Of a DNA stretch of 64,000 nt, positions 24,458-57,812 are shown piece by piece (within the stretch, counting starts at the first letter, position 1; each line of letters begins with the position of its first letter). A program made the translations under genes and the position numbers. Source of the DNA: Microthyrium microscopicum. Lineage: Eukaryota > Ascomycota > Dothideomycetes > Microthyriales > Microthyriaceae. The notes below the pieces were generated by a model. The model searched no databases, had not been told where the DNA came from, and saw only the letters and a list, made by a program, of their open reading frames with translations. The stretch is from the NCBI GenBank assembly GCA_010405405.1, contig MU004234.1, positions 1,879,563 to 1,943,562 of the forward strand, in the 5' to 3' direction.

Positions 24458-24488
24458 ATGGAGATCAAGGTTGCTAAACTAATTAGTA
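24458..24488. repeat. left hAT terminus: 8-bp TSD plus 23-bp TIR
   Basis: ATGGAGAT at 24458-24465 is followed by the terminal inverted repeat beginning CAAGGTTGCTAAACTAAT (24466-24488). The same 23 bp appear inverted at 57782-57804 and the same octamer follows at 57805-57812. Confidence 0.93.
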
Positions 24489-24690
24489 GCAAAACTAGTC
24501 TAGTCTAGTAAACTAGTTACGTGACTAGTATAGTATTATACTATACTAGTTACGTAACTAGTATAGTATAGTACTAGTTTAGAAAAATTTAATAACTAGT
24601 TAGTACTAGTATAAAATATTAAACTAGTTAACTAGTATAATATAATAGTAGTATACTAGTTCTATTAGTTTAATACTAGCTAAGCCTTTT
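24489..24690. repeat. left subterminal CTAGT-rich zone
   Basis: Dense overlapping ACTAGT/CTAGT/TACTAGTATA units in both orientations directly inside the left TIR. It mirrors a similar zone at 57600-57781. Subterminal short repeats of this kind are transposase-binding sites in characterised hAT elements; that role here is inference. Confidence 0.7.
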
Positions 24691-24849
24691 ATATTTAAAC
24701 TAAAATATATATTATTTAATAGCTTTATATCTCTAGAATCTAAATCTAGTCTTATAATTTTAATAATATTAATAGTTATAGAGTTATAGATAATATAAAA
24801 TAGATTTTAATAAAATATATAAGTATATATATTTACTTTTATTATTAAT

Positions 24850-25745
24850 AAATAGTATAATAATATACTTCTTTAGTTCTAAGTTATAGTATTATAATAT
24901 AGTTTAGTAGCTCTATAACGTAATATAGATTTAATATCTTATTTCTATTTAGTTATTATAATATAAAATAGCTTATAAAGTTAGTACTTTTTAAAATATA
25001 AATAAATATAAAAGAAGATAAGATATATACTAGATATTACTATTATACTAACTACTATAGAATACTCTATATACTTTTATTAAATAGATATATTAATAAT
25101 ATATAATTTATTAATAAGATTAAAATAAAAATATAAGAAAATAAATATATAAAGATTAAATTTAATATATATTATAATATCTAGTATTTAATAGTACGTT
25201 TAAAAGATTTATATAAATATTGTATAGTATTATAATACTATTAAGTAGGTTTATAATATTATATGGGTTTTAACTCTTATTTATGTTTAGTTTCTATAAT
25301 ATAAAATAATATATAGAAAACTACTTTATAAAATATAATATTATCTAGTAGAAGATAAGATATATAATAGGTATTACTATAATACTACTTACTAGGAAAT
25401 ACTCTAGAGATTCTTATTATATAAATATATTAATATTATATAATCTACTAATAATATTTTAATAAAAATATAAAGAAATAAATATATAATAAATAAATTT
25501 AATATCTTTTATTATAACTATAATAGAAAAGTAGTCTTTATAGTTTTTTATAAGATTTATATATTATTATAACGCTTAAGAGTAGCTCTATAATTTTATA
25601 TAGGTTTTAAGTCTTATTTATATTTAATTTCTATATAATAAAATAATATATAAAAAAGTTACTTTTATAAATATATTAAGATCTAGAAGGAGATAAGATA
25701 TATATTATATATTATTATAATAAGAAAAAATTACTCTATTTTAAA
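24850..25745. repeat. degenerate ~338-bp tandem repeat, about 2.5 copies
   Basis: The marker AGATAAGATATA recurs at 25016, 25353 and 25691 (spacing 337 and 338). The surrounding sequence aligns unit to unit, including GGTTTTAA(C/G)TCTTATTTAT blocks before the second and third markers. The third unit is truncated. It forms part of the hAT left arm. Confidence 0.65.
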
Positions 25746-27145
25746 AGCAAAAGAATAATTAATTATATAAGTATTAGAATTCTAAAAATAAACTACGAAA
25801 AGAAAATAACTAAATTTTTAACTAAGACATAAACTAATTATCTTCTAAAGCTATATTTAGCTCTTTATCCTTAATATAAGTTAAATTAGAGGAATTACTA
25901 AGAGTAGGGCTAGAAATAGCTAAATCTAGTGCTTTAAGCTCTTTTATTTTCTATATTAAATTAGTATATAAAAGTAATATTATTAATAAAAACTAACCTT
26001 CTAAAAGCCTTATTTAAGCTCTTTCTCTACTCGTTATTCTTCTTTAATCTTTTTATAAGTTTCTAGTAGCTATTAGTGTCTAATTTGACGTAACTTAGTA
26101 GAAGCTTCTTATAATTTAATAGGGTGTTTTAGATTAGATTTATAGATTTTTTAAACTTAATCTTTACTACTATAAAAGGTTAGTATAAGTTAGAAATAAA
26201 AGAATAAATATAACTTACCTAGAAGCTATTTTGCTAGTTTTAAAAGTAGTTTTAGTCTAATCTACTTATAATCCTTTCTAATTAATTACTAGATTTAATA
26301 AAGTTAATAATTTAGTTTTATATCTATATAATGACTAAATAGTAATAAGCCTATATATAATAAGAATAGTAATTTCCTTACTATTATATAAAAATATAGC
26401 TTTATAGTTTACTTTCTTAATTTCTAAGACGAAGTAAACTATAAAAGATTTAACGTTTCTACCTTCTAAAAGAAGTAAGAAATTAAGATATATACGTTAA
26501 AAATTATATTCTTAATGAATATAAACTAAATACCTAAATTCTTATCTTCTAGCCTATTCTTACTCTAAAATAAAAAAGTTATATTATAATTTATTATTTA
26601 AAAGAAGAGCGTTTCTATAGCTAAGAAATTTATTTATAAAACGTTATAGTTTAACTTATAAATTATATTAAGGATAAGAATTAGTTTAAGACACTATATA
26701 TTATATTAATATAATATAATAAAAATAGGATTATAACTTACTTTTAGCTAAAAGAATAAGGAAAGTATAACTAAAATGAAAAGTTAGAAAAAAAAATAAA
26801 GTTTAAAAATAAAAGATAACTTACCTAAAAAGGCTAAATAAGACTAGGCAAAGAGACTATTAAATAGAGAAAAATTTAGTAAGTTAAATAATATAGAATA
26901 CTAGTACTAACTAGTAGTAGCCTAATATTAAAGACTAGAAAAAAGAAAGTTAAAAAAAAAAAAAAAAAAAAAAAGATAATAATACTTACTATAGAAAGTA
27001 AAGAAGTATTAAATAAAAAAACAAAAGAGGCTAAGTCTAGAAAGTATAAAGAGTACTAGTATATCATAGTACTAAAATATAAAATAATAGTAATAGGTAA
27101 AAAATATAGTAATTATTTAAAATTTAAAGATTATTAAGGAAAACT
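25746..27145. other. hAT left-arm sequence, no readable gene
   Basis: AT-rich, stop-saturated sequence with faint coding texture on both strands but no motif I recognise. A 23-base homopolymer of A lies at 26952-26974, possibly the tail of a small retroposed fragment. Confidence 0.4.
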
Positions 27146-27447
27146 TAATATACTTATATTCTTTTAATATAGGATTTACGTGCTAAAAATACTATTATAA
27201 CTACTATAATTTAGGCTTTAAAACGTATATCATTTTAATTAGTTTAGGTACGTAATATAAAAGTTATTAATAAAAATAGATAAGACGCGTAAATATTTTA
27301 CTAAGCGCCCTATTTAGTTTTATTAATAACTTTTATATTACGCGTCTAAACTAGTTAAAATAATATGCGTTTTAAAGTCTAAACTATAGTAATTATAATA
27401 GTATCTTTAGTACGTAGATTCTATATTAAAAGAATATAAGTATATTA
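27146..27447. mobile_element. 302-bp foldback element with 130-bp arms
   Basis: Arms 27146-27275 and 27318-27447 are inverted copies of 130 bp separated by a 42-bp spacer containing ACGCGT. The few mismatches between arms look like transitions, as RIP would leave. No coding capacity. It begins TAATATACTT and ends with the reverse complement. Confidence 0.75.
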
Positions 27448-28857
27448 GGTAAACCTATTAAAATTCTTACTTATCTTAGATCTTAATTAATTACTTTACT
27501 TATACTACTTTAAATTATACTATTACCTACTTATAGCTTACCTATATCTCTCCTTATTATTAAAATTTACTATATATATTTTGATCTATTACTAAAAATT
27601 ACTTTTCTTTTTTTACTTTTTTAAATATTTTATTATATATAGACCTTTATTATATAATATAATACTATATTCTTCTCTTTAGAGAATTAGCTTTTATAGT
27701 CTATAGCTTTTATTACTTTTACTCTAGTTAGTATTAGTTTATTTAGCTTTTAGAAATAATTAGACTTTAAGTTTAGATTTTATACTTTTAAATTTCTAAG
27801 CTTTTAAACTAGTTACTATAATATTAGTTATTATTCTAGGCTCTTCTTATTAGATATAGAATAGCTTAGTTATTTTACTTTTATTATTATATCCTTCCTT
27901 AGCTTTATAGTTTATAAATTATTTAAAAAAATAGAAAAATCTTTATTTATTAAAAAATATTAAGACTTTTTAGTAGATTTTTATAAGACCTTCTTTGGCT
28001 CCTACACGGCTTAATTTGCACCACTTCATTAATTTAATTTAAATAAACCTTTAGAATCCCTTTGCTAACGCTTAGGGATTACTTTTATAAATTTTTAGCT
28101 AGACGCCTATACGCGTTATAGTGTTGTTACGGCTAGAAGAATGGCTAAATTAAATAACTAAAATATAGAAGAATAAGACTCTAATTTTAAGAGCTATAAG
28201 AGCTTACTTAACGATAGCCCTTTAGAACTACTTAGTATAGTTAACGTAGTAGGGATATCCCTATCTAGAATATAAAAAGGCATATAAAAAGGATTAGAAA
28301 TAATTATCTTAAAATAAGTCTTCTATAATACTATAGAGGAGCTTATTAAGCTAAAGGACTACGTCCTCTACTAAGAGGAAGAGCCTCTAGTAGCTAAATA
28401 CCCTACCCCTAAACCTACCTTTCTTAAAACTATCCTTAATTAGCTTAATAAGATTAAAGTAGTAGTTTAACGTTATTCTACTATACTAGCTCTAAAGCTA
28501 TATTCCTAAGTAGTAATTACCTCCTATACTAAACTACATATAAGTAAACTAAAAAGTTATTCTATTATCCTATAACCTAAGGCAGAATAATATATAGGGA
28601 CCCCTTTAGAGGTTCTTAAGGAACTTAAAAAGACATTTATAGGTACTATAAGCGTACGCCCTTTATAGAGTAGTAATCTTTGAGTTATCTTTAAAAATAC
28701 TAAATAGAAGGATTAGGCTTAGTACTTAACCATTAAAGGTACGTAAGTACTTTAGTAGGATTATCTTATTAAAGTAACTAGTATACTCTTAAAAAGCATT
28801 AGTAATAGGGTTCGTTATAGTAAGGTAGTTATTTAATTATAACTTAGGGTTTATTAA

Positions 28858-29081: not shown

Positions 29082-29120
29082 TAACTCTTCCCTTCTAAAA
29101 TAGACCTTATAGGCTATATC

Positions 29121-29178
29121 CTAATCTAATCTATTCTAGTCTAGTCTAGGCTAGTCTAGGCTAAGCTAGGCTAGTCTA
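29121..29178. repeat. CTAGT-type pentanucleotide array in Gypsy-2 3' UTR
   Basis: About ten imperfect TCTAG/GCTAG pentamers immediately before the polypurine tract on the element's strand. The same type of array occupies the same position in Gypsy-1 (46924-46985). Confidence 0.7.
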
Positions 29179-30797
29179 TATAAATATAAAACTCCTTTAT
29201 ATATATTACTACTAAGGAATATAATAATATACTATCTACTTACCTTAGTACTATTTAAATTTATTTAATAAAGAAAAAGATATCTATTTAAGCTAGTTTA
29301 TAGTATCCTATAATCTCTTTAATAGCATAAATTAAAAAACTAAACTAAAGGTATAATACTATTAGTAAAAATAAATAAATATAACGCTTTTTATACTATA
29401 TAATTCTAATCTATAAGTAGTTTATTAGTATTATAATCTTCTTTTTTAATTTAATTTACTAGTAGAGACTAAGAAGGGTATAAACTAAGCTTCTAAGAAT
29501 AAAGCCTATAGAATTCTAATATAGTATTAGATATATTAATAGCATTTTTCTAAGGCTACTAAGTTTTATTATAAAATCTTATTTATTTAATCTTATATTT
29601 AAGCACCTTATTCTTACCCTTACTATCCTATTTACTATTAATAATAGTATTAACTAGCTATTCTTTTTTACTTTCCTTTTTATTAATAACTACTAGAGGA
29701 GGATTTAACTTCTATAATAGATATACATTATTATTAATTAAATATAGTAGCTAAGTATAGAATACTAGGTATATCTTTATTAATTTAGAAAGATCTAATT
29801 TATAAGTTACTCTATTAGTTTTATATAATATCTTAAAGAGACTAGTACTCTTACTATTAAGTATCTTAGAAAAGTAAGTAGTATTATAATTATATACGTT
29901 AAGTCTTACCTAGTCTTTAAGATAGAGATCTAGTACTAGATAGTAATATTTATTAGCATAGAGCTTTTATTAAGCTTAAGCTTAAACTAATTACTTCTTT
30001 AAAAACTTATAAAGCTTCTTATAATTATCTTAAACTTAATCTATAGTAATTACTTTCTTACGCGCTATAATAAAAGCATAAGACGCTTTTAGTAGTAGGT
30101 AATAAGTAAATTTAAGCCCTAATTTTAGTAGAAAATTATTTTATACCTTAAAAGGTATAAAACTAGTAGTAGCATTTATAGCAAAATTTACTATAAACTT
30201 AGTAAATAATAATAGAGTTACCTAATTATTCTAATTCTAATTAATAAAGGATCTAAGATATTACTTTAAAGTAGTAATAGTTATTTTAGTAATACTATTA
30301 AATTCTAGATACTATATAATACTTAATCTTAGCATAATACCTATTTATTCGTATAGATAACCCTAAAAAGTAGATATAAATTAGATTCCTTAATCTAAAA
30401 GGATAAAGTTAGGCTATCTATATAGCTTCTATACTTAATTAATAAAAGCTATAATTATTATTTTTACTAAAAGACTTAGGAGGATAATAAATTGCTATAA
30501 CTATATTAAATAATTAATAATAACTATAATATACTAATAAACTATACCCTAATAAGTATAATATAGTAGTAAGATAACAAAATCTATTAAAATATTAGAC
30601 TATACTTAGTCTAGTAAAGAGAATAATTAAAAAAGGCTTTACTTCTTTTAGCGTACTAGTTTTATAAAGATATAATAGTAGCCTTTAATATATTTCTTAA
30701 CGTATTCTAATATTCTTAGCTATTAATAATCTTATTAAAAGTAGTAATATATTATTATAGTTCCTTTATAGCTTATAACTTTATATTAATATACTTA

Positions 30798-30891
30798 GGG
30801 GGAGTAGTACAGTAGTAGTACTTACAATCTTACAGATAGGCCTTACCTATTCGAGTATCCATAGGGCACAGGTTCGATTCCTGTCTCTCCC
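30798..30891 (+). other. tRNA-like (pol III promoter-like) head of a SINE-like insert
   Basis: 94 nt with a 7-bp acceptor-like pairing (GGGGGAG at 30798-30804 with CTCTCCC at 30885-30891). There is a D-arm-like GTAC-AGTAGTA-GTAC and a perfect T arm ACAGG-TTCGATT-CCTGT containing the B box GGTTCGATTCC. The middle does not fold into a clear anticodon arm, so I do not call a functional tRNA or assign an isotype. Confidence 0.65.
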
Positions 30892-32001
30892 ACTACCCCA
30901 AAAATAATAATCGTTACTTACTTTTAAAGCTATGATTACTCCTTCTTAGAGAAGGTTATCCTTTCCTTTTTAATAGGTGTAGAGAACGAGCTATAGCTCT
31001 TTTTAATATGTTGCAGAAGGTGCAAATTTTTGTATTACATAATTACTATATATAGCTATAAGATTATCCTTATTAAAGCTCTATTAATAATAATGGACTA
31101 GCGTTAAAAATTATATAATTAGAAACTAGCTACTTAATACATAAAGCTATATATAAACAAAGCTATAATATTACTAAAGCGTAGTAAATTCAGTATGCTA
31201 AAGCTAATTCTTTTACAACTTTTAGTAATTAGATTAGACGATCGGCCCTAGCTTAGTAAGCCTAAAATCTAGCTATAATTAGTTAAGGCAAAGATTAGAC
31301 TAAATAATATAGTAGAAACTTATAGAATCTAGGAATACTATAGCTTAGTAAGTATAGTGTCTACGAGTTAGCATAAATAGCGCTATAGGATAAGTTAGTA
31401 GACTTAGGGGAGGTAACCTAGAACACGCCAAGCTAAAGGACCCTAGATAATAGCTTAAAAGTAAAGCATAGCGTAGACGAATAGCTTTTAGCAGACTATT
31501 AGTACTACCTTAGACTTAATATTACGACAAGAATAGAGGGATCTAATATAATAATAAGGAGGGAATTAGCCCTACAAGGCGATAATATTAGTAACTTTAG
31601 GAACTTAAAGCAGTAGACTAATTAAAAGAATATACCGCTATTACGAAAAATACGCCTAGAGAAGTACTAATAGGCTAAATACTTCCTAGAATTTAGCTCC
31701 CTAATCTACTAAAGCTTTCATAGCTTAGGAGGCTAATAGGGCTTAGTAAGATATAATATTAGCCTTAGCACGAATTAGTATATAGAATATAATAGTAGGA
31801 TTTTCCCTTATATAGTTAGCGCCTTAGTTTACTAAATATATAGAAGTTAGCTAAAGCTAAACTAGGCCTTAGGCCTAGAGTAAGCTAGCTTAGCTAGATT
31901 TAGGTAGATTAGCTAATTAGATAAAGGTTTTTACCTACTTATTAAGAGTAGTGTCTATATAGCCTATTAGCATAGCTAAAAGATAATAAACAAGATTTAT
32001 A
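30798..32001 (+). mobile_element. 1.2-kb SINE-like retroposon with tRNA-like head
   Basis: The 16-bp direct repeat TATATTAATATACTTA occurs at 30782-30797 and 32002-32017. The first copy directly abuts the first base of the tRNA-like head. The body (30892-32001) is visibly richer in G+C than its surroundings and has no recognised domain. The 3' end, around AGATAATAAACAAGATTTATA, resembles the tail of the gag-like retroposon at about 53630-53650. It is inserted in Gypsy-2. It is unusually long for a SINE, so a composite or unnamed retroposon class is possible. Confidence 0.65.
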
Positions 32002-35000
32002 TATATTAATATACTTATTTTATTACTTTGTTTTATAAATATATTATTAATATAAATAACTTTTATTAATAAAGGATAGTATTATTTAGTAAAGCCTTAT
32101 AATCTATTAATTTAATCTAATCCTAATTTAGTACTTTAAAGAGCAAGAAGTAGTCTTTCTATATCTTTATTAGTTAAATCGTAATTAGTAACTTATCTTT
32201 CTTACTTACCTTTATTACTTTTTATATAAACTACTCTAAATTAAAGTTTAGAGATTTAGTATTAATTAGTAGCAAATTATCTAAGCTAGCTAGAGCTTTA
32301 TTCTAAGAGCTTCCTACAATAGGTTCTAAATTAGACTCTTTTACTATAGTAATATTTAACTTATCTAACGTAAGTATAGCTATCTATATAAAGAATAAGG
32401 TAATTAGGTTAATAAGAATTATAGCTAGCTTAATAGCTTATTTAATACTAAATTAATATAAGAATAAGAGTAGTTAATACTATTACTTAACCTATAGATT
32501 TTTATTACTTTAAAGTATATTCTATAATCTTTAGATTAAAGTATTAGCTTTGCTATTATCTTTACTAAGGTAGTATTTAATTAAAAAGTAGAATTATAAT
32601 AAGAATTTAGCTTAATATATTTAATAGCATATAAGCTTCTTAGTCTTTATAAAGGTTTAAAGATTCTAATAATCTAAAAATACTTTTATAATATCTTTAG
32701 TACTAAATAGCTTAGGTTTCTACTCCTTAAAAGTATAAATAATAGTAAGTAGTTCTTTATTATAAATATTATAATTATGTTCTACTAGTAATATCTTTTT
32801 AGAAAGAAAAGTAACTAGTCTTAGATTATTATTTATATCTTTTTATAATAATATAGTAGCGTAAGCTTAATTAAATATATCTATCTCTATCTAAGTTTCC
32901 TTAGTATAGTTAAAATACTAAAGTATTAGTATATTAGTAAAGTCTATTTTTAGTTTCTTAAAAGCTTATTTCTTAGGCTTATTAGAGTTCTAAGGAAATA
33001 TAGCTAGAGTATTCTTCTAAGTAAGATTTATTAATAGTACTATTATAGTAAAGTAATTAAAGATAAACTATTAGTAGAAGTTTATAAATCTAAGAAACGC
33101 TTATATATCTTTAAAATAGCTTAGTTATTTCTAATTAGTTATAGTATTAACCTTAAAAGGGTTTATCTTAATACCTTTTATAGTAATAATTAAACTAAGG
33201 TATTTTACCTCTTAAATAGTAAACTCTAACTTCTTAATATTAAGAAATAAGCCTATACGTTCTAATATATTTAGTACTAAATATATATAGGCGTTATATT
33301 CTTTTAGTATTTTACTAAATACTAGAATATTATCTAAATAGATAGTTATAAAATTATTTAAAAACTATATTAGTATATAATTAATATATACTTAGAATAT
33401 TCTTAGTCCTTCTATAAGGCTAAAAGGTAGTATTTTAAACTTAAATAGGCTATAGTATATTAAGAATACTATTTTATATTTATCTTTAGATTTAATATAA
33501 ATATATTTAAAGATAGTAATAACGTTAAACTTAAAGTAATATTTTGCCTTTATAAGGTATATAAGCATCTTACTAATAAGTAGTAGAATATTACTATTTT
33601 TAATAGTAATATTATTTAACTTATAGTAGTTAATATAGATATAGATACCTCTTCTTAGTTTACTTACGTAAAGTATAAGTATAGTATATTAAGATTTAGA
33701 ACCTATAGCAAAACTATACTAGAGTAAACTTTTAATATATTACTTAATAACTAATACCTACTTTAGTAATATTAATATAGATTAGCGTTTTAGAATTTTA
33801 GTATTAAAAATAAGATTAATAGTATAGTTATATTTACTACGATACAATATAAGAATATTTAAATACTTTAGATTAAAGACTTTAAAATATTAGTAGAAAT
33901 ATTCTAGAATAAGCTTTAAAATCTCTTTCTTTAATAGATAAGAGTAATCTTATTTATCTTACTATTTAAGATAATCCTCTTCTAATATAGCGTATACTAT
34001 AAGATTTATAATAAACCTATTATTATTATTCTTATTATTAGGAGGTTTCTTCTTTTTCTTATTATTAAAATCTTTAGGCTAAAATATATTAACTATAATA
34101 TCTTTACGCTTTATTAGTTTTTTAAACGCTATTATAAATATAAAAGTAATATCTAATTTCTTAAGTAATTTTAAATTTATAAATTATTCTTTTAGGTCTA
34201 TAGTAATTAGGCGTTATAATATAATATATATATATAAATCTTATTTATTATCTTTTAGCTACGCTAATGGGCTATGTAGATACTATTCTTACTTTTAGAA
34301 AAACCTCTATAGGGAAACCTATAGTGTTCCTTTAGTTGCCTTCTAGTAGCCTTATTCTATTATTATTATAATACTTTCTTAGTTTACTACTTCTAAATAG
34401 AAGGACTTATATTATCTCTTTATAAACTATAAGCTTACTAAAGGAATTCTAGTTAGTAGGTTAATATAGTAAGTAATTAGTAGTTACTAGCTATTAGGAG
34501 CTCTATATAGCTTAAGTATACTATATATTATATAAATTCTATACTACGTACTAAGATCTTAATCCTTAATACTATCTTTATTACTAGTTTCTCTTTTAGG
34601 ACTTATTTATTACTTAATTACTTAAGGCTATAGTATTCCTTAGGATTAGTTAAATCTAGCTTCTTAGCGCCTATTTCTATTTAGTATTGCCTTATTATTA
34701 AGTTTTACTATTATAGTTTAATAAGTTCCTATTAATCTTCTCTTTCCTAGAGGCCTATAGCTATTATCTTTATATAGTTAACTTTTTATATAGTTTTATA
34801 ATAGGTATATATAATACGTATTTCTAAGTTTTTATAATTAATTTCTACCCTTAATAGGCTCTAGTATTGCTATAGCCTTTAGCTATATTAAGCCCTCTCT
34901 TTTAATATCTATTAAGTAGAGTATTTATAATACTTCTTAGCTAAGTTTTTCTTATTAATCTATACTCTTTAATACTATATAATAGGCTACTAAATAGCTA

Positions 35001-38000
35001 CTTCTAAGTTTCTAGTAGTCTATATAGTCTACCTCTAGAGTATAAAGTATTTTAAATCTATATAGTTTTAGTTACTTCTTTCTCTCTAAGTTTTTATTAT
35101 ACCTCTTATTCTTTCTAATTTTTTTTCTAAGGGTAAGTTCTCTATAGGCTTCTTTTCTTCTTCTTCCTCTTATTTTTAAGTACTTAGTAAATATCTTATA
35201 CTTATAGGTACTTTCCTTCTATTATTTCTAAAGAAGGTAAAAACTACTTTATTTATAAATATTAAAAATACTACTTTATCCTTAAATATAAAATTAGCTA
35301 GTTTTATTTTAGCTTTTATTATAAGTTTTTTAGTATTTTTTTATATATAGTATTAACTATTATAATATAGACTATATATACTCTTAATATAAGAATCTAT
35401 TTATACTATCTCTAAGTATTATGCTATTATATAGAGTTACTTAATAGTAAGTACCTAGTTAGTTCTAGCGCGTCTATTATAGTAATTATCTATATTTATA
35501 GTTAAGCTAGCCCTAGCTAGTATCTTTACTCTTATTATAAAAAGTAATATTCTAAGTATAAGACTATAAGTATATTTTTATTCTTAATCTTTTATCTTTT
35601 CTAATATTATAATAAAGTACTAGTAGAGTTAAAGAAGTAAGGTAAACACTTCTAATATACTTTTAATAAAGTAATAGCTAACCTAGTTAACCCTTATTAA
35701 AGTATTAAAGAGTACGTATTATTAAGTATAAATAAGGAGGCTACTAAGTAGGTAGAGGTTATAAAGGATTTAGTAAGTAAGTTTATTAGCTATAGGGCCT
35801 AGTTTACTTCTACTATAGCTTTATTAGCGTAGTAAAAGAAGAAGAAGCTAAAGGTTAATATAGCTATGCTAGTTACTAATTTAGCTTACTTATAAGCTAT
35901 TTTATTAGAGTTTTATACTTAAAGTATAAAGATAGATTTATTAGTAGAGATATCTTAGTTATTAAGTAGAGTAGTAGTATTATTTAATAAAGAGTAGTAA
36001 ATAGATATAGAATAAAATTAATTATATTTTTAGACTTAGCTATTTCTTTTATAATTATATATTACTAGCCTATTAGTATTATAGTATTATAGTTAATTAT
36101 TTATAAGATTCTTAAGTCTTAGTAGTTCTTTATACGCTTTAAGGTTTATTTTTATAATCTTTTTAGTTAGCCTAAATTGCTAAAGAGCTTTACTCTTTAG
36201 TAGCTATTTAGTTGCTACCTAGGTATCCTTTAGATTAGAGAGTATATAGGTCTTATTTAGTATTATTACTTATTCTAGTAATCTTTCTTTATAATATTAT
36301 AGATAGTTTAGTAGTATATAGTAAACTATTTATTACTAGTAATTATATAGGTACTATAGTAAGAGAACTATTAGTACCTATATATTATATAGCTAGTTAT
36401 TAAGTCTAATAACTTTTAATTATATAAGGAAGAGCACTATTACTTATACTTTATTAAGACTATTATAAAGCTTAATTAGTTAGTTACTTTATAATATTTT
36501 CTACGCTATAGTAATATACTACTATGTCCTTATAAGCTATACTTAAGTATTTATTTAGAGCTTATAGTAATATGCCCTAATTAGGGATATCTTTAGCTTT
36601 AGTTTAGTTTTTATTTTTTTCTCTTTTTATAGCATATTATTTATTAGTTACGTTACTTATTTATAGTTAGTATCTTATTTTTACTTTATCTCTAATTTCT
36701 TTTTTTATTACTTTAGTATATTAATTCCTTAAGTTATAACCTTAGTTACGCATATTTATATTAGTTTAAGCGTTACTAGACTTCTTAGTTATTACTACTA
36801 GGAAGGTATCCTCTAGTTTCTTAAGAGGTTTACCTAGTATACTTTAGTAATAATTTTACTTATTTTTTATATTATTATTAAGTCTTTATTCTTATTAATA
36901 TATTCTTCTACTAAAATTATAGTATTTATTTAGAGTAGTTTAATTCCTATTTCCTTATTTAATAAAGTAATAAGAGTTTTTTAGTATTTTTCTATTATCT
37001 TATAGAGTATATTATTCTAAACTATTACTAGTAGTTTATAATAATCCTTTAGTACTTTAGAAGATAGTAATCCTAAATCCTATATTTATACTCTATATAT
37101 AAGAATTAGCCTAATAACTATTATATAAAGGAGCTTTATTTTTCTAAAGACTAGTCTTTATTTTAACTATGCTATTCTTAAAAGTATTATTACTTACTTA
37201 AATCCTTTAGTTTTAGTCTTTTTAATATAGTCTTTTTAGTTTATCTTTCTATTTATTTATATACTTAGTATCCTAATACTTTTTAGTATAAGCTTAGTAA
37301 ATATACTATTTATTATTATTATAGATTATAAGTCTACTTCTAGGTAGTAGATATTTTAAGTAAAGTATATTACTTAGTACTTATTAAGAATAAACTTTAT
37401 ACTATATTTATTTACTTAGTTAGTATACTTTTAGTAGGTTTTTTCTAGTCTTATATAGTTTTCTTAGGTAGTATTACTTTATATAACTAATATAGTATTA
37501 TTTATAAACCTAAATCTAAAAATGTTATTATTAATATCTTAGAAGTATTTTAGTAGTTCTAATATAAAGAAAAGGAAGAGGATAGGTAAGAGGGAGAATT
37601 TTTAGGGGATCTCTATATTAGTTATTATTACTAGGCTTTAATGCTTAGTAAATATAATTTAGGTTATATAATTAGTAGTAAAGCTTACTACTATGTTAAT
37701 TAGCTACTAAGGAACTTCTTTTATCTCTAAAATATATAGAAGTCTCCTTAGATTAATATTATTATATGCTCCTTAAAAGTTAAGGCTAAGTACTAATACT
37801 ATAGCTCTTACGTTTTTCTTCTATACTACCTTAATAGTACTCCTTAGGAGCTATACTATTATTAGCGTTAACTACCTTACCCTAGCCCTTATCTAGTTCT
37901 AGAGTAGTAGGTTATTATCTTTTATAAGTTAGGTAAGTCTATTAGTAATAATCTTTTTAACTAACTTTGCTATAATATTCTTAAGGATAATTAGCTAGTA

Positions 38001-42800: not shown

Positions 42801-45800
42801 ATAGGAAGTAGAGTAATAAGAATTATTTACCCTAACTTTATTAAATAATATAGGATCTCTACTATTAATCTCTTCGCCCCCTAAATTATATAATTAGCTA
42901 ATAGTAAGGCTATTATAAAGGTTAATAAAGCTACTATAGTTAACGTCTATTTAGAAGGGTATATTAAATAAATCTACTACTTTATTATAAACGTAGCTAG
43001 CTACGATATTATTCTTAGTAATCTATAGATTAACCTCTATAAAGTTACTCTTAAAAGAGGAAAGAAGTAAATCCTCTTTAATTTAGACTATTACTTAGTA
43101 TATTACTTACTAGCTAATTGCCTAATCTCTATAGATTATAAAGGCTATTTAGTTAACCTAACTAATCCTTACTTTAAGAATATTACTATAGTTAGTATTA
43201 CCGCCTTTATTAAACTACTAGAATAAGGCTAGTAATTTAGTAAAATCTAGCCTAATAATTTTAAAGATGAAAAAGATAAGAAACCTCTAGATCTAGATCC
43301 TATGCTAAAAGAAGATATCGCTATTAATTTAGGCAAGATCTTACCTAAGGATTTTAAAAAGTAGCGAGAGAAGTATAATAAATCTCCCCTCTTATAAGAA
43401 GAGATTCTTAAATACTTACTAAAAGAATATTACTATTATATAGACATCTTTAACCTAAAATTAAGCAATAAACTTATACTATACTATAGCGAATAAGATT
43501 ACTCTATTAATATTATCCTAGATGCTATAATTCCTAAATACTACTATAATAGCCTAAGTCACTAGGAATCCTTTATTATTAAATAATACGTTAATTAGAT
43601 ACTTAGTTAAGATTAAGTTTAGGCTAGCAAATTATATTACGCCATACTAATGCTATATGTATATAAACTAAGAGAAGGAATTTAAGTTTATATTAATTAC
43701 TACAGACTTAATAAGATTATATAAAAGAATCATAACGTTTCTTTATAGCTATTAGAAACTTTAACCTATATCTATTACGTAAAATACTTCTCTAAGTTTA
43801 ACGTTATTGCTACCTTTATATATATCTATATTAAACCTAGCAATAAATATAAAACTATATTCCTAACTTACTATAGGTTATATAAATTTAAAGTTATGCC
43901 CTTTAGCCTTACTAAAGCCTTAGGGACCTTTTAAGCTTATCTTAACTATATTCTAATTAATTACCTTAACGACTTTATTATAAGCTATATAGACGATCTA
44001 TTAGTCTTTAGTAATACTAAAGCTAGCTATACTACCTATACCTACTTAGTCTTAAAAGTAATAAATAAAGTAGGATTATACTTAAATATCTAGAAGTGTA
44101 AATTTAATACTTAATAAGTTAAATACCTTAGCCTAATTATTACTACTAAAGGCATTAAAATAAACCTAAAGAAGATTTAAAGTATAGTTAACTAGTAACG
44201 TTCCTCTTTAGTTAAAAACGTTTAAGCTTTCCTTAGCTTTACTAACTTCTATTACTAATTTATTCTTAAATACTTAAAGACTATAGTACTACTAATAGTA
44301 CTTATAAAGAAGGACGCTATAGCAATCTTCTCTTAAGACCCTAATAGGCTAGAAGAACGCGCGTTTAAGAAGCTAAAGATAGACTTTACGTTTACTAAGA
44401 TATTATGCTACTTTAACTATATTAAAGAAACATAGCTAGAAATAGATGCCTTAGATTAAGTTTATGCCGTAGTTCTCTCTTAAAAAGGTAATAATAGGAA
44501 GCTTTACCTAGTTATATACCTCTTAAAGAAGATAACTCTAATAGAATATAATTATAATATTTATAATAAAGAGCTTCTAGCTATTATCTATATATTTAAG
44601 GAATAAGAACTAGAGCTATTTAGCTCTATCAACCCTATTTAAGTATTCTTTAATTACTATAACCTTTAGACGTTTATAATAACAAAACGTCTCTTTTAAC
44701 AATAAGCTAGATAGGCTAAGTTCTTCTCCTAGTTTTACTTTAAGATAAAGTACTAACTAGGTATAGCTAACGAAAAGGTAGATGCCCTTACCTATTAGTT
44801 ATAAGATATCTTACAAAGTAATAACGATCCTTATATCTTTTAATAAGTCTAACCTTTACTATTCCTATATTAATTTAATATAGACTATATAGTAAAGCTA
44901 GCTATATTGCTTATTAAACCCGCCCACCTCTTAATACTATACCTAGCTACTATTACTTAGGATAAGTTAGATATTTCTAATCCTATAGGTAAGCTACTTA
45001 ATCCTATAGAAGAGTCTCTTAGTAATAATAAGACGCCTAAGAATAAGCTACTTAATTTCTTAGAAGATAACTTATTCCTAAATTTTAATAGCGACTAGTT
45101 TTTATAGGATATTGTAAATATAATAGAATATAACAAAACGATAATTACTATTTACTACGCTAAAACTAACTACTAGCTCTTCTTACCCTTTAGTACTCTA
45201 GAATAAGAGCAAATTAAGCTTAGAGACTATATAGTAGCTACTAACAAAATAATCCTTTACTATAATTAAATCTTTATCCCTTAAGGAAAGCTTTAGCGCC
45301 ACGCTATATAGAGCGCATATAGCTATAAAGCTATAGGCTACAATAGAGCAGTAACAACTTACTACTACCTATAAGAAAATTACTAGTAGCCTAAGATATC
45401 ATAGGACGTTAAGAGCTTTGTTAAGGGCTATAAGTATATATTTACTAAACTAGTTTGCTAAAAGAAGTAAAGCTTTCTACGATAATTCCCTCTTCCTAAG
45501 TACGTATAGTTTAATATCTCTATTAATTTCGCCATCTTATTACCTTATTATTTATACTAAGGCGTAATCTACTAGCACGTTATAATAGTTATTAACTAAT
45601 ACATACAGACCTAATGCTTTATTTTGCTACTAGACCTTTCTATAGATTTAATAGTACTAGCCTTTATTAACTACGTATAAAAGCTTATTAGCTAGCTATT
45701 AATAATTCTTTTAGATTATAGTAGCTAATTTACCTTTATATTCTAGAAGCGTTTATACAAATACGTAGGTATAATACTTCGCCTTAGTATAGCATTTTAC

Positions 45801-46923
45801 CCTAAAACTAATAGTATAATAGAAATCTTAGTTATTATACTTAAGTAGTTCTTACGCGTATTTATTAACTAGGATTAAGATAACTAGGTAGCCCTTTTGC
45901 CCTTTACTAAATTTATAGTTAATTTCACTATAAACGCTACTATAGGAGTTATACCTTTTAAAGCTTAAAATAGATTTAACCCTTAATTAGGCCTTAAGTC
46001 CTTATATTACCTCTTAAAACCTATAAATGCCTCTATAGTAGCTAATAAGGAAGCTATTAATGTAGACATAATATAGAAGGGTCGTACTAAGATATATAAT
46101 TATCTAATAGAGTAATTAATCTAGGCATAAGCTTAGTAGGTAGAGTATGCTAACTACTACTACTATATAGCTCTAGACCTATTATTAAGTAACTAGGTTT
46201 ACTTAGATATACAGAACTACCCTACGTTATATCCCTTAAAAACTCTAGACGATAAGAATATAGGCTCCTTCTATATAATTAAAAAGATTAATACTATTAC
46301 CTATAAACTTAATCTCTTCGCTTCTATAAAGATATATAATATCTTCTACGCCTAGGTCCTCTACTATATTATAGACGACACTAAGCTACTTAAGTACGCT
46401 AACCTACTACTAGTAGTTATTAGAGAGACTATAAACGACGACAAATAGTTTATTAACGCTATTATTAATAGCTGCTTTACTAGTCAATATAAGAAGCTAT
46501 AATATAAGATTAAGTATACTAGTTATAATAAAGCTAAATAGTATAATTAGATAGCTGCTAAGAATGCGTTAGAGCTTATTACTAAGTTTTACGCTTAGTA
46601 CCTTAGTAAGCTAGGCCTATATCCTACTTAGATACTACTAATACTAAAGCCTACTAGTAATAGTATTAATTACGACTCTAATAGTATTCTTACTAATTAA
46701 AAGGAGTAAAATAATTATACTACTAATTCCTTTATATTAATAGGATTACTAACTACTAGACTACTAGGACTTAAGAACTAGAGTATTCTAAGGATATCTT
46801 AGGGTTTATTAATACTTCTTAATAGTTACCTTAGTAGGCTAGAGGTTAAGATACTCTAAATAACTAGTAAGGTTAGTATTATACTATAGAAGGATCAAAA
46901 TATCGTTTATTATTAAAAGTTTG

Positions 46924-46985
46924 TTAGACTAGACTAGACTAGACTAGACTAAACTAGACTAGACTAGATTAGACTAGATTAGGAT
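46924..46985. repeat. TAGAC pentanucleotide array in Gypsy-1 3' UTR
   Basis: Around twelve imperfect TAGAC/TAGAT units about 70 bp before the 3' LTR, in the same structural position as the array in Gypsy-2. Confidence 0.75.
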
Positions 46986-47055
46986 AAAATAGATTAGGAA
47001 AGTAGATATAATTAGTAGTTTATAGCTTAGAGAGCTATACTAAAGGAAGGGGTCG

Positions 47056-47282
47056 TGTAATGATTCCTCTTTATAGGCTTCATAGTAGTGTTGTAAGAGA
47101 AATCTTATTGTAAGATTACGCGCTAGACCTAAGGGGGTTAGCGCGCCCAAGGATCTACTAAGCGGACTTACTTCCCTCGTAGATCTATAGCTCTTCTAGA
47201 TCTTCTTCTCTCTCTCTCCTGTTCGTAGATTCTAAAATACAATCTAATTATCTACTTGCTCTAAGTTCCGCAGCTCGTTACA
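47056..47282 (+). repeat. 3' LTR of Gypsy-1 (227 bp)
   Basis: Direct copy of 39618-39844. It starts TGTAATGATTCC and ends GCTCGTTACA, with canonical TG...CA termini. Confidence 0.9.
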
Positions 47283-50200
47283 TATACTTATTTTATTACT
47301 AGAGGTTAGCCTAGGGTTATCTATAGCCTATTCTATTTTCTTATAATTATTTCCTTATTAGTCTTTTAGGGCGCTATCTCTTATAGTTTATAAGCTATTA
47401 TTACCTTTATTAAAGTTAAATATGCTTATAATTAATTTCTAAGTACCCTAGACTAGGTTATTATATATTTTATTTTCTACTTTTTATAATGCTAATAGTC
47501 TTCTAGGGTTCTTAGTCTCTACTTTTTTTTTCTTTATACTATTTACTATAGTATATTTATTATTATTTATAAGCTAAATTAATATAATTTAGATAAATAT
47601 TATAGCTCTTATCTATTTTATATATTTTTTATTTATTACTTAGAATCTTTTTATACTTTTAAAGTAAATTTAGTATACTTTATATATATTCTTCTACTAT
47701 ATATAGTATTCCTAGCCTTACTTTTTTTCTCTTTTTCTTTTTTTCTTATTATCTTTATAGTTAAAGTACTAGACTAGGCTTATTCTAATATAGTTTTTAG
47801 TATTATAATTATTTATATATTTACTATAGTTTAGTTTATATTAGGTATAAACTATTTATATATAGCCCTAGACTTAGTAGTAGAAGTATTATTTAGTAGT
47901 ATATTTTAGGTTATATAATCTAGTAAAAAGCTTCTTTACCTTAATAATAAACTTCTTTTAGATAACCTTATCTCTTATTACTATTATTAGGTAGTATAGT
48001 ATAAATAATTCCTTAGTATATACCTTTTTATACTTTTTTAGTTCTTCTTTTACCTATTTATATTCTACGCCTCTATAAAGTTACTAAACTATTCTTATTT
48101 TTAGGTATTTAAACCTTATCTTATTTTTATTAACTAGTTTTTTAATTAGTTTATTATTATCTATATTCTTATTATAGGCTACGTCTAGTTTAAGTAAAGT
48201 CCTTAGGATCTCTACTAGATAGTCTTATTATAGAATTTAGACCTTATCTAAGCTTACCTAGCGTAGCCTATTTTAGATATAGTCCTTATCTAATTATATA
48301 TTAACTATAACGTTAATATTTTTACTAAGTAGTAGCTTAATAGTTATTATTTATAGAATAGTTTCCTTAATCTTTTTAAATAGCTTTACTTTATTTTACT
48401 TATTTTCTTTTAATATATTTTTAACTACTTTTATAATATTAATTTAGACTATTAGGCTTACGTAGAGAGCCCTTTAGTTAAGGATTAGTAGGTTAGGTCC
48501 TTTTATAACCTTTACTTAGGAGTTAGGGATTATTTTAATCTTAGTAATCTACTTTATAATTATATTAAGTTTTTAGTTAAGATATATCTTAAGGCATATT
48601 AGCAAAGGGACCTTATTTATAGTTAGAGCTAGGTAGAATACTAGTTATTTAATATAGTCTTATACTATAATAAAGAATATATAGTATTATATAAAATTAG
48701 CTATTAGCTAGTTAAGGAATAGTTATATTAGATTCTTCTTTTTAGATATAAGTTTTCTTAATAGTACTTTAATTCCTCTTTATATTTCTATAAGTAGTAG
48801 TTTTAGGTTATCTTTTTATTTCTATATTGCCTTATTTTTAATATGAGTAGCCTCTATAGTAATAATAGCTATCTACTATAAATCTTTATTTATCTCTATA
48901 GCGTTAGCTATTGCTTATATCTAGTTAAAAGTTATATTATTATAATAGTCTTAATAAGATGAATCTAATAATAATAGTTTTATAGAATAATTCTAAGAAA
49001 TTAATCTTTTAGTACAATGATGCTCCTTCCTTTTCTATAATATAATATAATTTATAATATATCTTATACTATAAAAGGTTAATATTCTTAATCCTCTATA
49101 TAGGTTAACTTTATATTAATTTAGCTAGGGTACTTCTAGAATTAAATTATAAGAGGCTACTTCTATAATAAAATAGCTAATTTACTTAACGTAGTATCTA
49201 ATATATAGATTAAGGATAGTAGCTTTATTAACTATAAATACTAACTTACTATTAGTAAGTATTACTAAGCGTAAATAAGCTAATTAAAACGTTAAAATAC
49301 TATATTACTAAAGATAATAAGAGTTAATAATTCTTATTATACTACTACTAATATTAATTAAAATACTAGCGTTAAAGTAAGTTAACTACTATAGTATAAA
49401 TACTAAGCTAATAGTAATTTATTATAATCTAATAATAAGATCTTTCTTTTTAATATCTTAAAGCTATACTACTAATATAATAGAAGCTAGTAAGATATAG
49501 ATAGTATATAAGTATACTAAGAAGATATATCTCTTATAAATAGTATCTTTATACTTAAGATGCTAAATATACTAATAAAGGTAACTAAGTATCTTCTTAG
49601 TTTTCTTTTAAGCTTTTTCTTTAATATTCTTATAGTTTTCTTTTACTTAATAAAATATCTTCTTAGCTTTCTTAGTATTTTAGCGTTATTCTTTATTATA
49701 TTAATAAAATATTTTTTTTACGTACTTAATTATAGTATTAAAAGTACGTTTCTTTTTTTTATTATATGCTTTAGTTTTATTTAGCTCTTTCTTATAGCTT
49801 AATAAAGAAGTATCTAGTTTAAAGATTAATAGTTATTATCCTTAGTAGTATCCTTTATAAAGAGTTACTATTCTTTTTAAACTTTTATAAATATTACTAC
49901 TAAAGGTATAACTAAGGCTTTAATCTTATTATTAGATAAAGGTTCCTAATTTTTATATAGCGTAGTCTTATTAAAGTAGTAATAACCTTTTTATTTATAA
50001 TAGACGTAACGTTTATCTATTTTTAAGGCGTTAAAAATATCTATAAGATAGTTAATATTATTATTTTTATTATTTTAGGCTCCTTTATTAGTAGACTAAT
50101 TATTATTATAGCTATAGAAGTTATTATTTATAGTAGTAGGCTTATAATTAATTTAGTGCGCAATAAAGTAAAGTTAAGTATAAAATATAGTAAAACTATT

Positions 50201-52617: not shown

Positions 52618-53601
52618 ATTAAGGCCCTAAATAAAGATAATTAGTACCTTCCTACTATTACTAAGGTAAGCTAGATCTATAGTAATAAAACGTTAATCTT
52701 AGGAAAGAAGAGATTATCCTTTATTATATATCTTCCTATAAAGAGTCTCTAGGAAACTACTATAGCTTAAGGGCTAACAATTAAAGGCATATAGTATAGT
52801 TGTAAACTCTAGGCTATAACGCTAGTAAGTACTTATTACTATTAGTATAGTACTTAGGGATATATATAGTCTTTCTATTTAGTAGAAGCTTACTATAAAT
52901 ACTATATAAGTAAGTATAATATATAGGACTATAAAATAAAAGATAAAAGTAAATAGTGCTTAAATTATAGTTATAAACATAACTATTAAGACAAATCCTA
53001 TAGTATTTATAAAAGTATTACTTTAGTAGCAGACGTCCTTTAGGTAACCCTATTTAAATATATTATCAACTTATAGAATAACGTAGCTTAATAAGATTAT
53101 AGTAATATAAACCTACTACTAAAGAATAAATATATACTTATTACTATACTAAAAGCTAGCCCTATAAAAGGCCTTAGAAAGCCTCTAGCCTTAGCTATAA
53201 TAGAATCTACTCTAGGATAGCAATCCCTTAGCTTTATGCCTACTTATTTAGAACCTTTAGGCGTAGCTACGCCTATAGTTACATTAAAAGGGAAGATTAT
53301 TATAGCTATCTTAGTAAGTATTTATAAGGCTACTAAAGTAGCTCTAGCAAACCTAGTAGAGTTTAAGGAAGTAGATAAAGAGGTTTAGATAAAGTTAAAT
53401 AAGTAGGAAGGAGATTAAATGAAGTAGAAGCGTTTTATAGAATAGCTTATTAATAGCTATAAGGTTAACGTTCTATAATAGATAAATAGACGCTAGAGCG
53501 CCTATAGTGCCCTACTAGGGCAAATAGTGTAGTTTTATTCCCCTAAGGGTTTCTACTATAAATAGTTAGTATAGTCTATATACGTCTATTAGAGTAGCGT
53601 A

Positions 53602-53644
53602 TTTAGACCCCTTACGAGGTCTAAACAAACTAGACAATAAAGAG

Positions 53645-53675
<31 letters not shown>
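53602..53675 (+). repeat. 3'-terminal stem-loop and (TA)n tail of the gag-like retroposon
   Basis: TTTAGACC (53602-53609) pairs with GGTCTAAA (53618-53625) around an 8-nt loop. About 20 bases later a (TA)n run (about 53648-53675) ends the element. A stem-loop plus simple-repeat tail is typical of LINE/SINE 3' ends recognised by reverse transcriptase. Confidence 0.6.
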
Positions 53676-53681
<6 letters not shown>

Positions 53682-53859
53682 TAATTATTTATTATATCTC
53701 TATTCTTTATTTTATTTAAGACTTAAAAATTAAGTTCTAGAATTTAGATAGTATACTCTATATAACTCTTAAGTTAGTTTTATTTATTCTAGTTTATTTT
53801 CTATTATATTAAAGACTTTATATTTATTTAAATAGTTTATATAATAGCTAACTATAATA

Positions 53860-56182
53860 TACTAAATTCTAGCTTTAATAATAGCTAGATATCTAATACT
53901 AAGTCTATTAAGCCTTAGGATAGTATATCTAATATTTCTACTACTACTTCTCTTAGTTAGTAAAAATATAATAAACTATACTTTAAGCTAGATAATAACA
54001 ATTCTAATACTTATTTAATTATAAAGAGGCTTATTAAAAGAGAACTACTTCCTATTAATATTACTAAGCCTAAATAAGTTAAAATTATATATACTCTTTA
54101 TTCTTATAGTTAAATAAAGAATTTAAAAGGTTTCTAAACTTCTAATTTTATAGTATATTATAGAGCTAAACATAAAACTATTACTATTAAAGAAGAGTAA
54201 AAAATTAATAAAGAAACTATAAAAGAATACTAAGCTAGAATTAAAGCTAATAGTAATAATCCTAGTAATCCTTTTACTATATCTATAATTAGTAATAAAT
54301 AAGCTAAAGCTAATACTAGATTAGATTTTAATTTAGATACTACTTTATATTTAATAGTTAAATTTATAGTTAAAAATAACTTATCTTTTAACTTATATAG
54401 CTCTAATTCTTTTAAAGAACTTCTAAAGTATTATAATTATTATAGTCCTTAAATTAATTATAATAAGCTTTAAAATCTTCTTTATTCTAGTTACGATAAA
54501 GCAAAAGATAAGCTAAAACGTAAATTAAAAGTAGTAGTTTCTAAAAATAATTATTTTACTATAGCTTTAGACGTATAGATATCTAATAGTAATTAGTATA
54601 CCTTTTTAAGTATAATAATTATCTATACTAATAATAACGTTAAGTTATAGTATAGATTACTAGGATTTAAAAGATTAACTACTAATTATACTAGAAGATA
54701 TCTTTATAGTATATTTAAAAGTATTATTAAGTCTTTTAACTTAGATATTAGTTATTTTATTAGTTTTTTATAAGATAATGCTAGTAATAATAATATGTTA
54801 ATTACTTAACTAAGAACTAAAAAGAATCTAATAGGTTCTACTAAAGATTTCTATAATATTTGTTATACTATATATATTATTAATTTAGTTGCTAAAGCTA
54901 TTATTAGATACTTTATAGCTAATTATAATAAGGAAATTAAGACTACTAGAACTAGAGCTAGTCTTATTAGTTAATATACTACTTCTACTTAACTAGATGC
55001 TATTTTAGATACTATAGCTTCTAAGAGTCTAATAGGTAGACTTAAAAAGATAGTTTACACTATTAAATTTAAGTAAGAATATTAAAAGAACTTTAAATTA
55101 TCTAGAAAGTTATATCTTAAAAGAAGAATACTAGACAAAGATATTAAAATAACTAAAATACTTATAAATAATAATACTAGATAGAATTCTATATATTATA
55201 CTCTAAATTATTTTTTTAAACTTAAACCTTATATTAAATATATCTTTACTAATACTAAAGATAAAAAGTTTAAGAAGTTTATATTTAATAAAGCTAATTA
55301 GCTAGTATTAAAGTATTTAAAGAATATTCTAGGCTATTTTAAAATACCTACTATTATTTTATAAGAGTAGATTTATATTATAATTAATTAAACGCTTTTA
55401 TATATTTATTAATTATTTAGAAATTTAGAAGATTAAATGCTTAAATTTTCTATATCTCTTAATTCTATTATATTAAAAGATTATCCTAAGCGTAAATACT
55501 TTATTAATACTATTAAGGAAAGCCTTAATAAGCTAGAAAAATACTATCCTTATAAGATTATAAATTAAGAAGTAGTAGAAAATCTAAAGCCTTTTATTAT
55601 AGCTTTAATTTTAGATCCTAAATATAAAATAATATATTTTATAAATAATCCTTATAGCTTATTACTTTACTATCCTTAAATTTTAATAAACGTTACTAAT
55701 TTATTTAAAGAAAAATATAATTTAGCTAAAATAAAACTAAATCCTACTTCTTTAAATTAAGAAAGTAGTAATTTAGATCCTATTTTAGATAATAATAAAA
55801 ACACGTTTTTTATTCCTATTACTAACGATAATACTACTACTACTAAAGAAGAGTATATTTATTATTTAAAATAAGAACGTACACATCCTAAAAAATATTC
55901 TTTAGATTACTAAGTTAAAAACTAAAATTAATTTTCTATTCTATTTTATTTAGCTAAAAAATACTTAATAATACCTAGTACTTCTACTAGTACTAAAAGT
56001 ATATTTAGTATTAAAGCAGATATTATTTTAAATAATAGAAATAAACTACTAGCAAAGACTAATAAAAGAATTATTTAGCTTAAAAACTAGAAATTAGTAG
56101 ATATTAATAAGTTTAAAAAATTATTATTATATAAATCTAGAGATAAGGATAGTAGTAAAAGTAAAGTAAAGAGTAATTATTA
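53860..56182 (+). pseudogene. hAT transposase, RIP-degraded
   Basis: hAT transposases cut and paste DNA through an RNase-H-like DDE domain. One plus-strand frame stays recognisable for about 2.3 kb. The catalytic-domain start reads NNYFTIALDV near 54550-54575, followed by TFLSIIIIYTN. Downstream comes a helical insertion region. Near 55930-56075 the C-terminal dimerisation signature appears: FYLAKKYLIIPSTSTSTKS, then FSIKADIILNNRNKLLA. Numerous TAA/TAG codons interrupt it, mostly where CAA/CAG or TGG would be expected, as RIP produces. No intact frame remains, so it is a pseudogene. Its strand and place next to the right TIR fit it being the founder element's own gene. Confidence 0.82.
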
Positions 56183-57599
56183 ATATAGTAGAGTTAGTTA
56201 GGTTTATCTTTTAGGCATTAAGGAGTTATAGGTATTAGTTTAAATAGAAAATATAAAAAGATTAGTTAAAACTAAAGTATTATTATTAAAAGTAAAAATA
56301 AGGATAAGTTTATTAAGTATTAGAGTATAGAGTAGTAGTATAGATTTAAGTTTTATAATATATAGATTATTTAATATAATATAGTAAAAGTAGTTAAAAC
56401 CCTAATATAAAGAACTTATAAATTTATATATTAATTTAAAGATTTACGTTTAACTTTTAATAGATATTAATACTTATAGCTAATTATATTATATTAAAAT
56501 TTAAGAATCTACTACCTATATTTATTCTTTATAAATTATATATTAAATCATAGCTTATCTTATTCTAATAAGTAAGTTAATTATAAAAGTTTAAAAGACG
56601 TATTTAAAATATAACTAGTAATAAGTATATATTTAAAAAAAATAAGTTAGATTATTAGATAGAGTAGGCTTAAAGATATATAATAATATATAGTATAGTT
56701 TATAAATATTTAGTTTTAGTAGTTATATAAATAGTTTTAAAATAATAATAAAAGATAGTTTAAAGTTTTATTATATAAAGTAGTATTTTATATTTTAAAT
56801 TTAGATTTTAATTAGATAGTAAATATATAGAAAATTCTATATTATTATATAGCTCTAAAATAACTTTATATAATAATATAGGTTTTATATCTTAAGTATT
56901 ATAACTCTTAGTAGTATTTAAAATACTTTTAAATAATAAAATATTTTTTTAAATAGTAAATAAGCTTAGATAAGACAAAATAAATATATAGTTTTATATA
57001 GAATATATATATATTTATTATATAACTAAAATTTATCTAAAAAACTATAATTAAAAGACTTATTTCTACTATTTACTTACTTTATTATTATAAATATTAA
57101 TCTTTAGTACTAATATATTTAATATCTTTTTACTATATAAGTATTATATAAAACTAATACTCTAAGTATACTTATTATATTATAATAAATCAAAATATAT
57201 ATAGATTTACTTAAAAATAGCTATTTCTAATATAACTAAGTTAAATATAATATTTTAGTTAACTTTATTCTTTTTATCTATTATATTTATATTCTTAATT
57301 CCTAATTATTTATATTAAAACCTAAAATAATTATATTTAGTCCTAATTCTTTTTATATTCTATTAGGCATAATTCTAGGAAGCTATACTTAAAAAATAAG
57401 TACTTAAAATTAAAAATGAACTACTCTAGTAATTATTTAAGCTTTATTTTTTAATAAAAAAAAAAAGCTCTAACTTTAAAGTTAAATAACTCTAGAATTA
57501 GTTAATACCTATTAAAATAAAATATACTATTATATTCTATGTAAAATACTAAATTAAATAATATATTTTTTAGCCTATAATATTACTTAATCTATTTAT
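56183..57599. other. hAT right-arm sequence, no readable gene
   Basis: AT-rich RIP-affected sequence between the transposase relic and the right subterminal repeats. A segment near 56840-56890 resembles part of the 338-bp repeat of the left arm. No other motif was recognised. Confidence 0.45.
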
Positions 57600-57781
57600 A
57601 AAACTAGTATAGAACTAATACTAGTATACTAGTAGTATACTATAGTACTAGTCTAATTAGTATTATAAAATACTAGACTAGTATAATACTAGTACTAGTA
57701 TTAAAGTATCCCTAGACTAACTAGTACTAGTAGCTACTTTTAATACTAGATACTAGTCCTACTAGTACTAGTACTAGACTA
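57600..57781. repeat. right subterminal CTAGT-rich zone
   Basis: Dense ACTAGT/TAGTACTAGT units directly inside the right TIR, matching in kind the left zone at 24489-24690. Confidence 0.7.
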
Positions 57782-57812
57782 TACTAATTAGTTTAGCAAC
57801 CTTGATGGAGAT
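57782..57812. repeat. right hAT terminus: 23-bp TIR plus 8-bp TSD
   Basis: 57782-57804 is the exact reverse complement of 24466-24488, and ATGGAGAT follows at 57805-57812. Confidence 0.93.

Follow-up and report, generated by a model that had tools for sequence, protein, structure and literature searches.

The window analyzed here, a stretch of 64,000 nucleotides of Microthyrium microscopicum (G000:C5:1879563-1943562; the genome comprises 36,878,185 bases on 20 contigs, labeled C1, C2, and so on), contains a 33-kb AT-rich block whose edges are, to judge from the sequence, the two ends of one insertion of a hAT DNA transposon. The block very probably originated through this insertion, nested entries of retroelements into it, and an AT-richness made by repeat-induced point mutation (RIP).

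An earlier, sequence-only reading of the window had reported an inverted repeat at the ends of the block, identical octamers flanking it, a composition edge, and a relic of a hAT transposase, all of which we recovered (Table 1). The two copies of the terminal inverted repeat (TIR), CAAGGTTGCTAAACTAATTAGTA, agree at all 23 bp and part at the 24th position, and the element measures 33,339 bp from terminus to terminus. Both termini are flanked by the same octamer, the target site duplication (TSD); the flank abutting the block ends in GTGTAATAATGG on the left and starts with AGGATGGGATGCGG on the right. The G+C content falls sharply at both termini: in 100-bp bins it goes from 0.46 and 0.54 immediately outside to 0.30 and 0.33 in the first such bin of the block and 0.19 and 0.22 in the second. 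Bins of 1 kb range from 0.15 to 0.30 when fully inside the block and from 0.43 to 0.60 when fully outside. No stop-to-stop frame of at least 100 codons lies within the block, the 4 listed for the window being all in the flanks. The relic matches the dimerization domain PF05699 (E = 1.2e-8) over a stretch interrupted by 4 stops.

A family of nine hAT copies

We searched the whole genome for a 21-bp core of the terminus, allowing up to 3 mismatches and using the reversed pattern as a control. The core gave 15 matches against 2 in the control, and a broader pattern gave 23 against 5. Eighteen of these 23 matches pair up as nine inverted pairs, 7.6 to 75.5 kb apart: C5 (33,339 bp, the window), C12 (7,593 and 75,523 bp), C1 (16,511 bp), C3 (7,820 bp), C7 (30,660 and 8,140 bp), C8 (17,335 bp), and C10 (24,347 bp). 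The flanking octamers match at 8/8 positions in eight pairs and at 7/8 in the C8 pair, whereas 72 mismatched left-right combinations reached 6/8 at best (mean, 2.5). Further inverted pairs with 8-bp TSDs, for which the sequence-only reading had proposed a search, are thus present in this genome. The ends of hAT elements follow the consensus CA(A/G)NG, and here 17 of 18 ends read CAAGG or CAGGG, with one C8 end reading TAAGG. The G+C content drops at the terminus at 17 of the 18 edges. The exception is the right flank of the C1 copy (G000:C1:2792707), the sole edge that is AT-rich outside, where the element adjoins another AT-rich stretch.

The other five matches carry 3 mismatches each, show no G+C fall, have no listed partner, and equal in number those of the reversed control, and they therefore look like chance. 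Apart from these, every match within the 3-mismatch limit has a partner; unpaired copies across the genome, which had been named beforehand as evidence against a single insertion, were not found. A looser terminal pattern yielded no further pair: its 29 matches comprised the 18 of the nine known pairs and 11 others with 2 mismatches each, against 30 matches in the reversed control.

The copies share internal sequence as well as termini. Their comparison covered all but 605 bases of the 7,593-bp C12 copy (C12:191929-199521, hereafter C12s), 6,312 of C3, 1,740 of C7, and 9,859 of C10, while the 30.7-kb C7 and 75.5-kb C12 copies were sampled only. The C12s transposase, with its stops read as X residues, matches PF05699 (E = 6.4e-15) as the sole family at E ≤ 0.1. 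The genome holds 17 PF05699 matches, 7 of them in seven of the nine pairs, including the window. A DNA search with the C12s transposase gene (21 hits) found it in eight of the nine pairs, all but C3, where only the part outside 6,312 of the 7,820 bases was open to this search. A transposase protein search scored 7,999 candidates, of which none reached E ≤ 0.001. The family thus shows the 8-bp TSD, short inverted termini of the CA(A/G)NG type, dimerization domain, and multiple copies of the hAT superfamily. More distant relatives, 66 to 84% identical, occur outside the nine pairs (G000:C10:1312551, C2:1993592, C18:114218, C4:1949695, and others). The window copy also carries tandem repeats of ~337 bp near its left end (24885-25722) and a palindrome of ~300 bp (27143-27450), both of which are found in C1 and C8.

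Nested insertions within the hAT element

C12s aligns collinearly to the window element in two parts (element positions 1-3498 and 29186-33339), which places the whole insert at one point of the hAT. The hAT thus accounts for ~7.6 kb (23%) of the window element and later DNA for 25.7 kb (77%), and the claim of the sequence-only reading that all other elements arrived later agrees with this comparison, since all of them lie inside the hAT at that point. Junctions and TSDs give the order of the nest: element X lies in the hAT, LTR-A in X, elements Z and Y in LTR-A, and LTR-B in Y. Empty sites in other copies cover three of these five junctions.

Element X is flanked by a 10-bp TSD (AAAATATTAA at 27954-27963 and 53675-53684). 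C12s, C1, and C8 show this site unoccupied, other copies of X are present in C8 and C10, and a Pfam search with one piece of X gave no match. LTR-A, a retrotransposon with long terminal repeats (LTRs), has the TSD ATTAA (28853-28857 and 52618-52622), and its site is empty in the X of C8. Element Z, which resembles a short interspersed nuclear element (SINE), has a 13-bp TSD (ATTAATATACTTA at 30785-30797 and 32005-32017); ARAGORN detected its tRNA, without a type call, only in the less mutated C1 copy. The ends of element Y are the weakest of the nest junctions, its TSD (TATAATATAATATA at 34215-34228 and 49036-49049) being of low complexity and found by eye. Element Y appears to belong with the long interspersed nuclear elements (LINEs), as suggested by a reverse transcriptase-like stretch recognized by eye and by the tail that it has in common with Z. 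The TSD of LTR-B reads TTTAC at 39613-39617 and TATAC at 47283-47287, and its site is empty in the Y of C10. The 3' tails of X, Z, and Y look alike by eye, which suggests that all three are mobilized by a single LINE machinery. A loose BLAST search of Y and its surroundings against C1 was set aside, as the matches listed were mostly AT-composition noise.

AT-richness and order of events

RIP is a fungal defense that mutates repeated DNA and gives transitions. Over 6,985 sites, 458 transitions and 15 transversions separate the window copy from C12s, and over 7,616 sites, 405 and 8 separate C1 from C8; between these two subfamilies (window and C12s versus C1 and C8), the transversions number 61 to 67. 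The LTR pairs show 19 (LTR-A) and 28 (LTR-B) transitions with 0/225 and 0/229 transversions, respectively, and three X copies differ by 9 to 17 transversions in ~1,895 sites. The changes follow the RIP pattern, C-to-T and G-to-A transitions with loss of CpA/TpG. The transition bias and the stops are observed, and established fungal biology leads us to infer that RIP was the agent of the AT-richness. The low transversion counts suggest a recent spread, in terms that are relative and carry no calibrated date. Two further sources of timing were discarded. The LTR transversions are too few to separate the layers, and the RIP state of the X target site is weak evidence of order: it has T in both window TSD copies and C in C12s and C1, but T also in C8.

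The sequence-only reading had presented the isochore as one dated insertion and not as gradual accretion. This holds for the edges, which one founder insertion sets, but the dating extends no further than the relative order of events. The AT-richness is RIP-like, as composition and transition bias indicate, and does not come from the insertion itself. As for the content, 25.7 of the 33.3 kb is stepwise nested accretion, with at least five later insertions.

We propose that a hAT of ~7.6 kb would have inserted by cut-and-paste into gene-rich DNA between the transporter-like and HET-like genes, duplicating 8 bp, a step for which the ends, the duplication, and the relatives within the genome provide the basis. 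Retroelements would then have entered the hAT and each other: X, LTR-A, Z and Y, and LTR-B. Being multi-copy, the hAT and its guests would have been mutated by RIP, the hAT either before or after the guests came in, which would have raised their AT content as far as the termini and broken the transposase. The dead insertion may have served as a neutral target.

Other copies and alternative origins

Different insertions, at different positions of the hAT, occupy the copies on C1, C8, and C10 and the 75.5-kb copy on C12. The C1 copy holds an LTR element akin to LTR-A that itself contains Z, the C8 copy an LTR element and X, and the C10 copy X and Y. In the 75.5-kb C12 copy, two samples 4.0 kb apart match points of the window Y that are 4.0 kb apart once LTR-B is excluded, so that this copy probably contains Y without LTR-B. 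Its G+C content is 0.15 to 0.27 in 17 of 18 samples; the exception falls in a GC-rich element of 1.1 kb (G000:C12:569858-570994) with LTR-like ends of ~240 bp (by eye) and the TSD AAACG. This element, by eye, looks like a miniature LTR element; it is little mutated inside the RIP-mutated hAT, and C10 shows the site unoccupied. The 30.7-kb C7 copy has a G+C content of 0.14 to 0.31 in all 10 readable samples (of 11).

These differences bear on a giant, cargo-carrying hAT whose nest was assembled elsewhere and which moved as one 33-kb unit. The ends and TSD do enclose the full 33 kb, and elsewhere in the family the span between matching TSDs rises to 75.5 kb. However, the copies carry different insertions at different points, copies of 7.6 to 8.1 kb exist (that on C3 lying mostly outside the comparison), and the window transposase is full of stops. 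Moreover, the same nest was not seen in C12s, C1, C8, or the readable part of C10, the 30.7-kb C7 and 75.5-kb C12 copies having been sampled only. We consider such a move very unlikely. An old AT-rich isochore with hAT ends at its margins, by chance or through separate insertions, is more improbable still: the right flank of C1 indicates that a hAT can adjoin another AT-rich stretch, but the TSD matches on both sides, the G+C edge falls at both termini, and the 18 convincing termini are paired in inverted orientation. The size of the larger copies might recall a giant element of the Starship type, with a captain that is a tyrosine recombinase, but this has a negligible probability, since ends, TSD, and transposase are all of the hAT type and no DUF3435 was found above the cutoff in this genome (one subthreshold match on C2, E = 0.0018). 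The 14 control genomes likewise gave none, so that a heavily mutated captain could be missed.

Several points weigh against an origin by hAT insertion and nesting. The case for the insertion is drawn from one fungal genome; movement as a 33-kb unit keeps the small probability given above; and the comparison covers only parts of C12s, C3, C7, and C10, with the two large copies on C7 and C12 represented by samples. Within the nest, the assignment of Y rests on inspection by eye and a common tail, with no Pfam match in three pieces and a low-complexity TSD, and the TSD of LTR-B agrees at only 4 of 5 positions.

Extent of hAT founding and growth of the block

Random samples of 101 bases from nine of the 20 contigs had a G+C content below 0.33 in 8 of the 58 readable cases (of 60), or 14% (95% interval, 6 to 25%). 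The nine hAT-bounded blocks sum to 221,268 bases (0.60% of the genome), so that ~4% (2 to 10%) of the AT-rich DNA would be bounded by hAT ends. hAT founders are thus one source of AT-rich blocks and not the general one.

Element X has ~12 copies in the genome, a lower bound (14 of 17 search hits, the other 3 reflecting hAT sequence in the query). Three of these copies lie inside the hAT family, compared with ~0.16 expected under even landing in AT-rich DNA (P ~0.0005; range, 0.0001 to 0.005, the latter at the least favorable AT-rich share). This post hoc test credits each of the nine copies with 7.7 kb of hAT, as an assumption, and takes the AT-rich share from 58 points. It could be that single hAT insertions seed AT-rich isochores and that the dead founder is preferentially hit by later elements, so that the block expands internally while the founder termini continue to mark its edges; we regard this landing-pad idea, already raised by the sequence-only reading, as tentative and rather doubtful. 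Counts of founders and layers across AT-rich blocks would bear on whether isochores start singly and grow from within.

Genomic setting

The left neighbor of the block is a transporter-like gene and the right one a HET-like gene that begins ~500 bp beyond the block edge, both named by eye. Farther out in the left flank, the SurE-like protein shows 100% identity, over 97% of the query, with a protein listed for Microthyrium microscopicum, a Dothideomycete, and the species assignment by sequence comparison depends on this single protein.

Table 1. Features of the window, with positions counted from its first nucleotide
Feature	Positions	Strand	Remarks
SurE-like protein gene	18772-19743		Left flank
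Transporter-like gene	frame reaches 24424	-	Left neighbor, ~40 bp from the element
Left TSD	24458-24465	.	ATGGAGAT, identical octamer at both edges
Left TIR of hAT	24466-24488	+	23 bp
hAT left part	24466-27963	+	Versus C12s, 97% over first 184 bp, 92% from C12s position 795 on
Element X	27964-53674	+	1.9-kb retroposon, (TA)n tail; own DNA 27964-28857 and 52618-53674
LTR-A	28858-52617	-	Ty3-type retrotransposon within X; 225-bp LTRs; RVT_1 and RT_RNaseH; minus-strand coding
Element Z	30798-32004	+	tRNA-headed, SINE-like retroposon within LTR-A
Element Y	34229-49035	-	Putatively LINE-like, within LTR-A; antisense; 3' tail in common with Z
LTR-B	39618-47282	+	Ty3-type retrotransposon within Y; 229-bp LTRs; RVT_1 and RT_RNaseH families
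hAT right part	53685-57804	+	~94% identical to C12s
hAT transposase relic	53811-56060	+	Many stops; PF05699 at 55896-56087
Right TIR of hAT	57782-57804	-	23 bp
Right TSD	57805-57812	.	ATGGAGAT, identical octamer at both edges
HET-like (HET-domain) protein gene	58304-60648		Right neighbor

Comparison with known systems

The AT-isochores of Leptosphaeria maculans are said, after its 2011 genome paper, to be mosaics of RIP-mutated transposable elements (TEs). They form large, TE-rich AT blocks (PMC3493481), for which the available text of PMC3493481 describes no single founder with a TSD, unlike the Microthyrium block. The genomic fissures of Pyrenophora teres are AT-rich, lie between gene-rich regions, and vary in length and presence, with nested insertions and RIP mentioned (PMC5915480); the accessible parts of that source name neither a founder nor the precise limits of any one fissure, whereas both are given here, for one locus. 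In the literature searched, most subscription papers being outside its scope, no earlier account was found in which hAT termini delimit an AT-rich block.

The closest likeness is with Pseudocercospora fijiensis, another Dothideomycete, in whose AT-rich blocks (average RIP index of 0.2 [PMC4981457]) there is a large, RIP-mutated hAT of ~9.5 kb that carries histone H3 and has a 20-bp TIR and an 8-bp TSD (PMC6710886). Without their guests, six of the nine Microthyrium pairs measured 7.6 to 8.1 kb. The P. fijiensis family, as far as the text seen describes it, comprises 471 elements with a captured histone H3 and DUF659 but no dimerization domain, in contrast to the nine pairs and PF05699 of Microthyrium, and its ends are not described there as edges of AT-rich blocks (PMC6710886). 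Less usual in Microthyrium is that a single block reveals its founder, its two edges, and the succession of its layers, which makes it a clean case of a fungal AT-rich block whose start and order of growth, from the founder through at least five layers added afterwards, are legible in its sequence.

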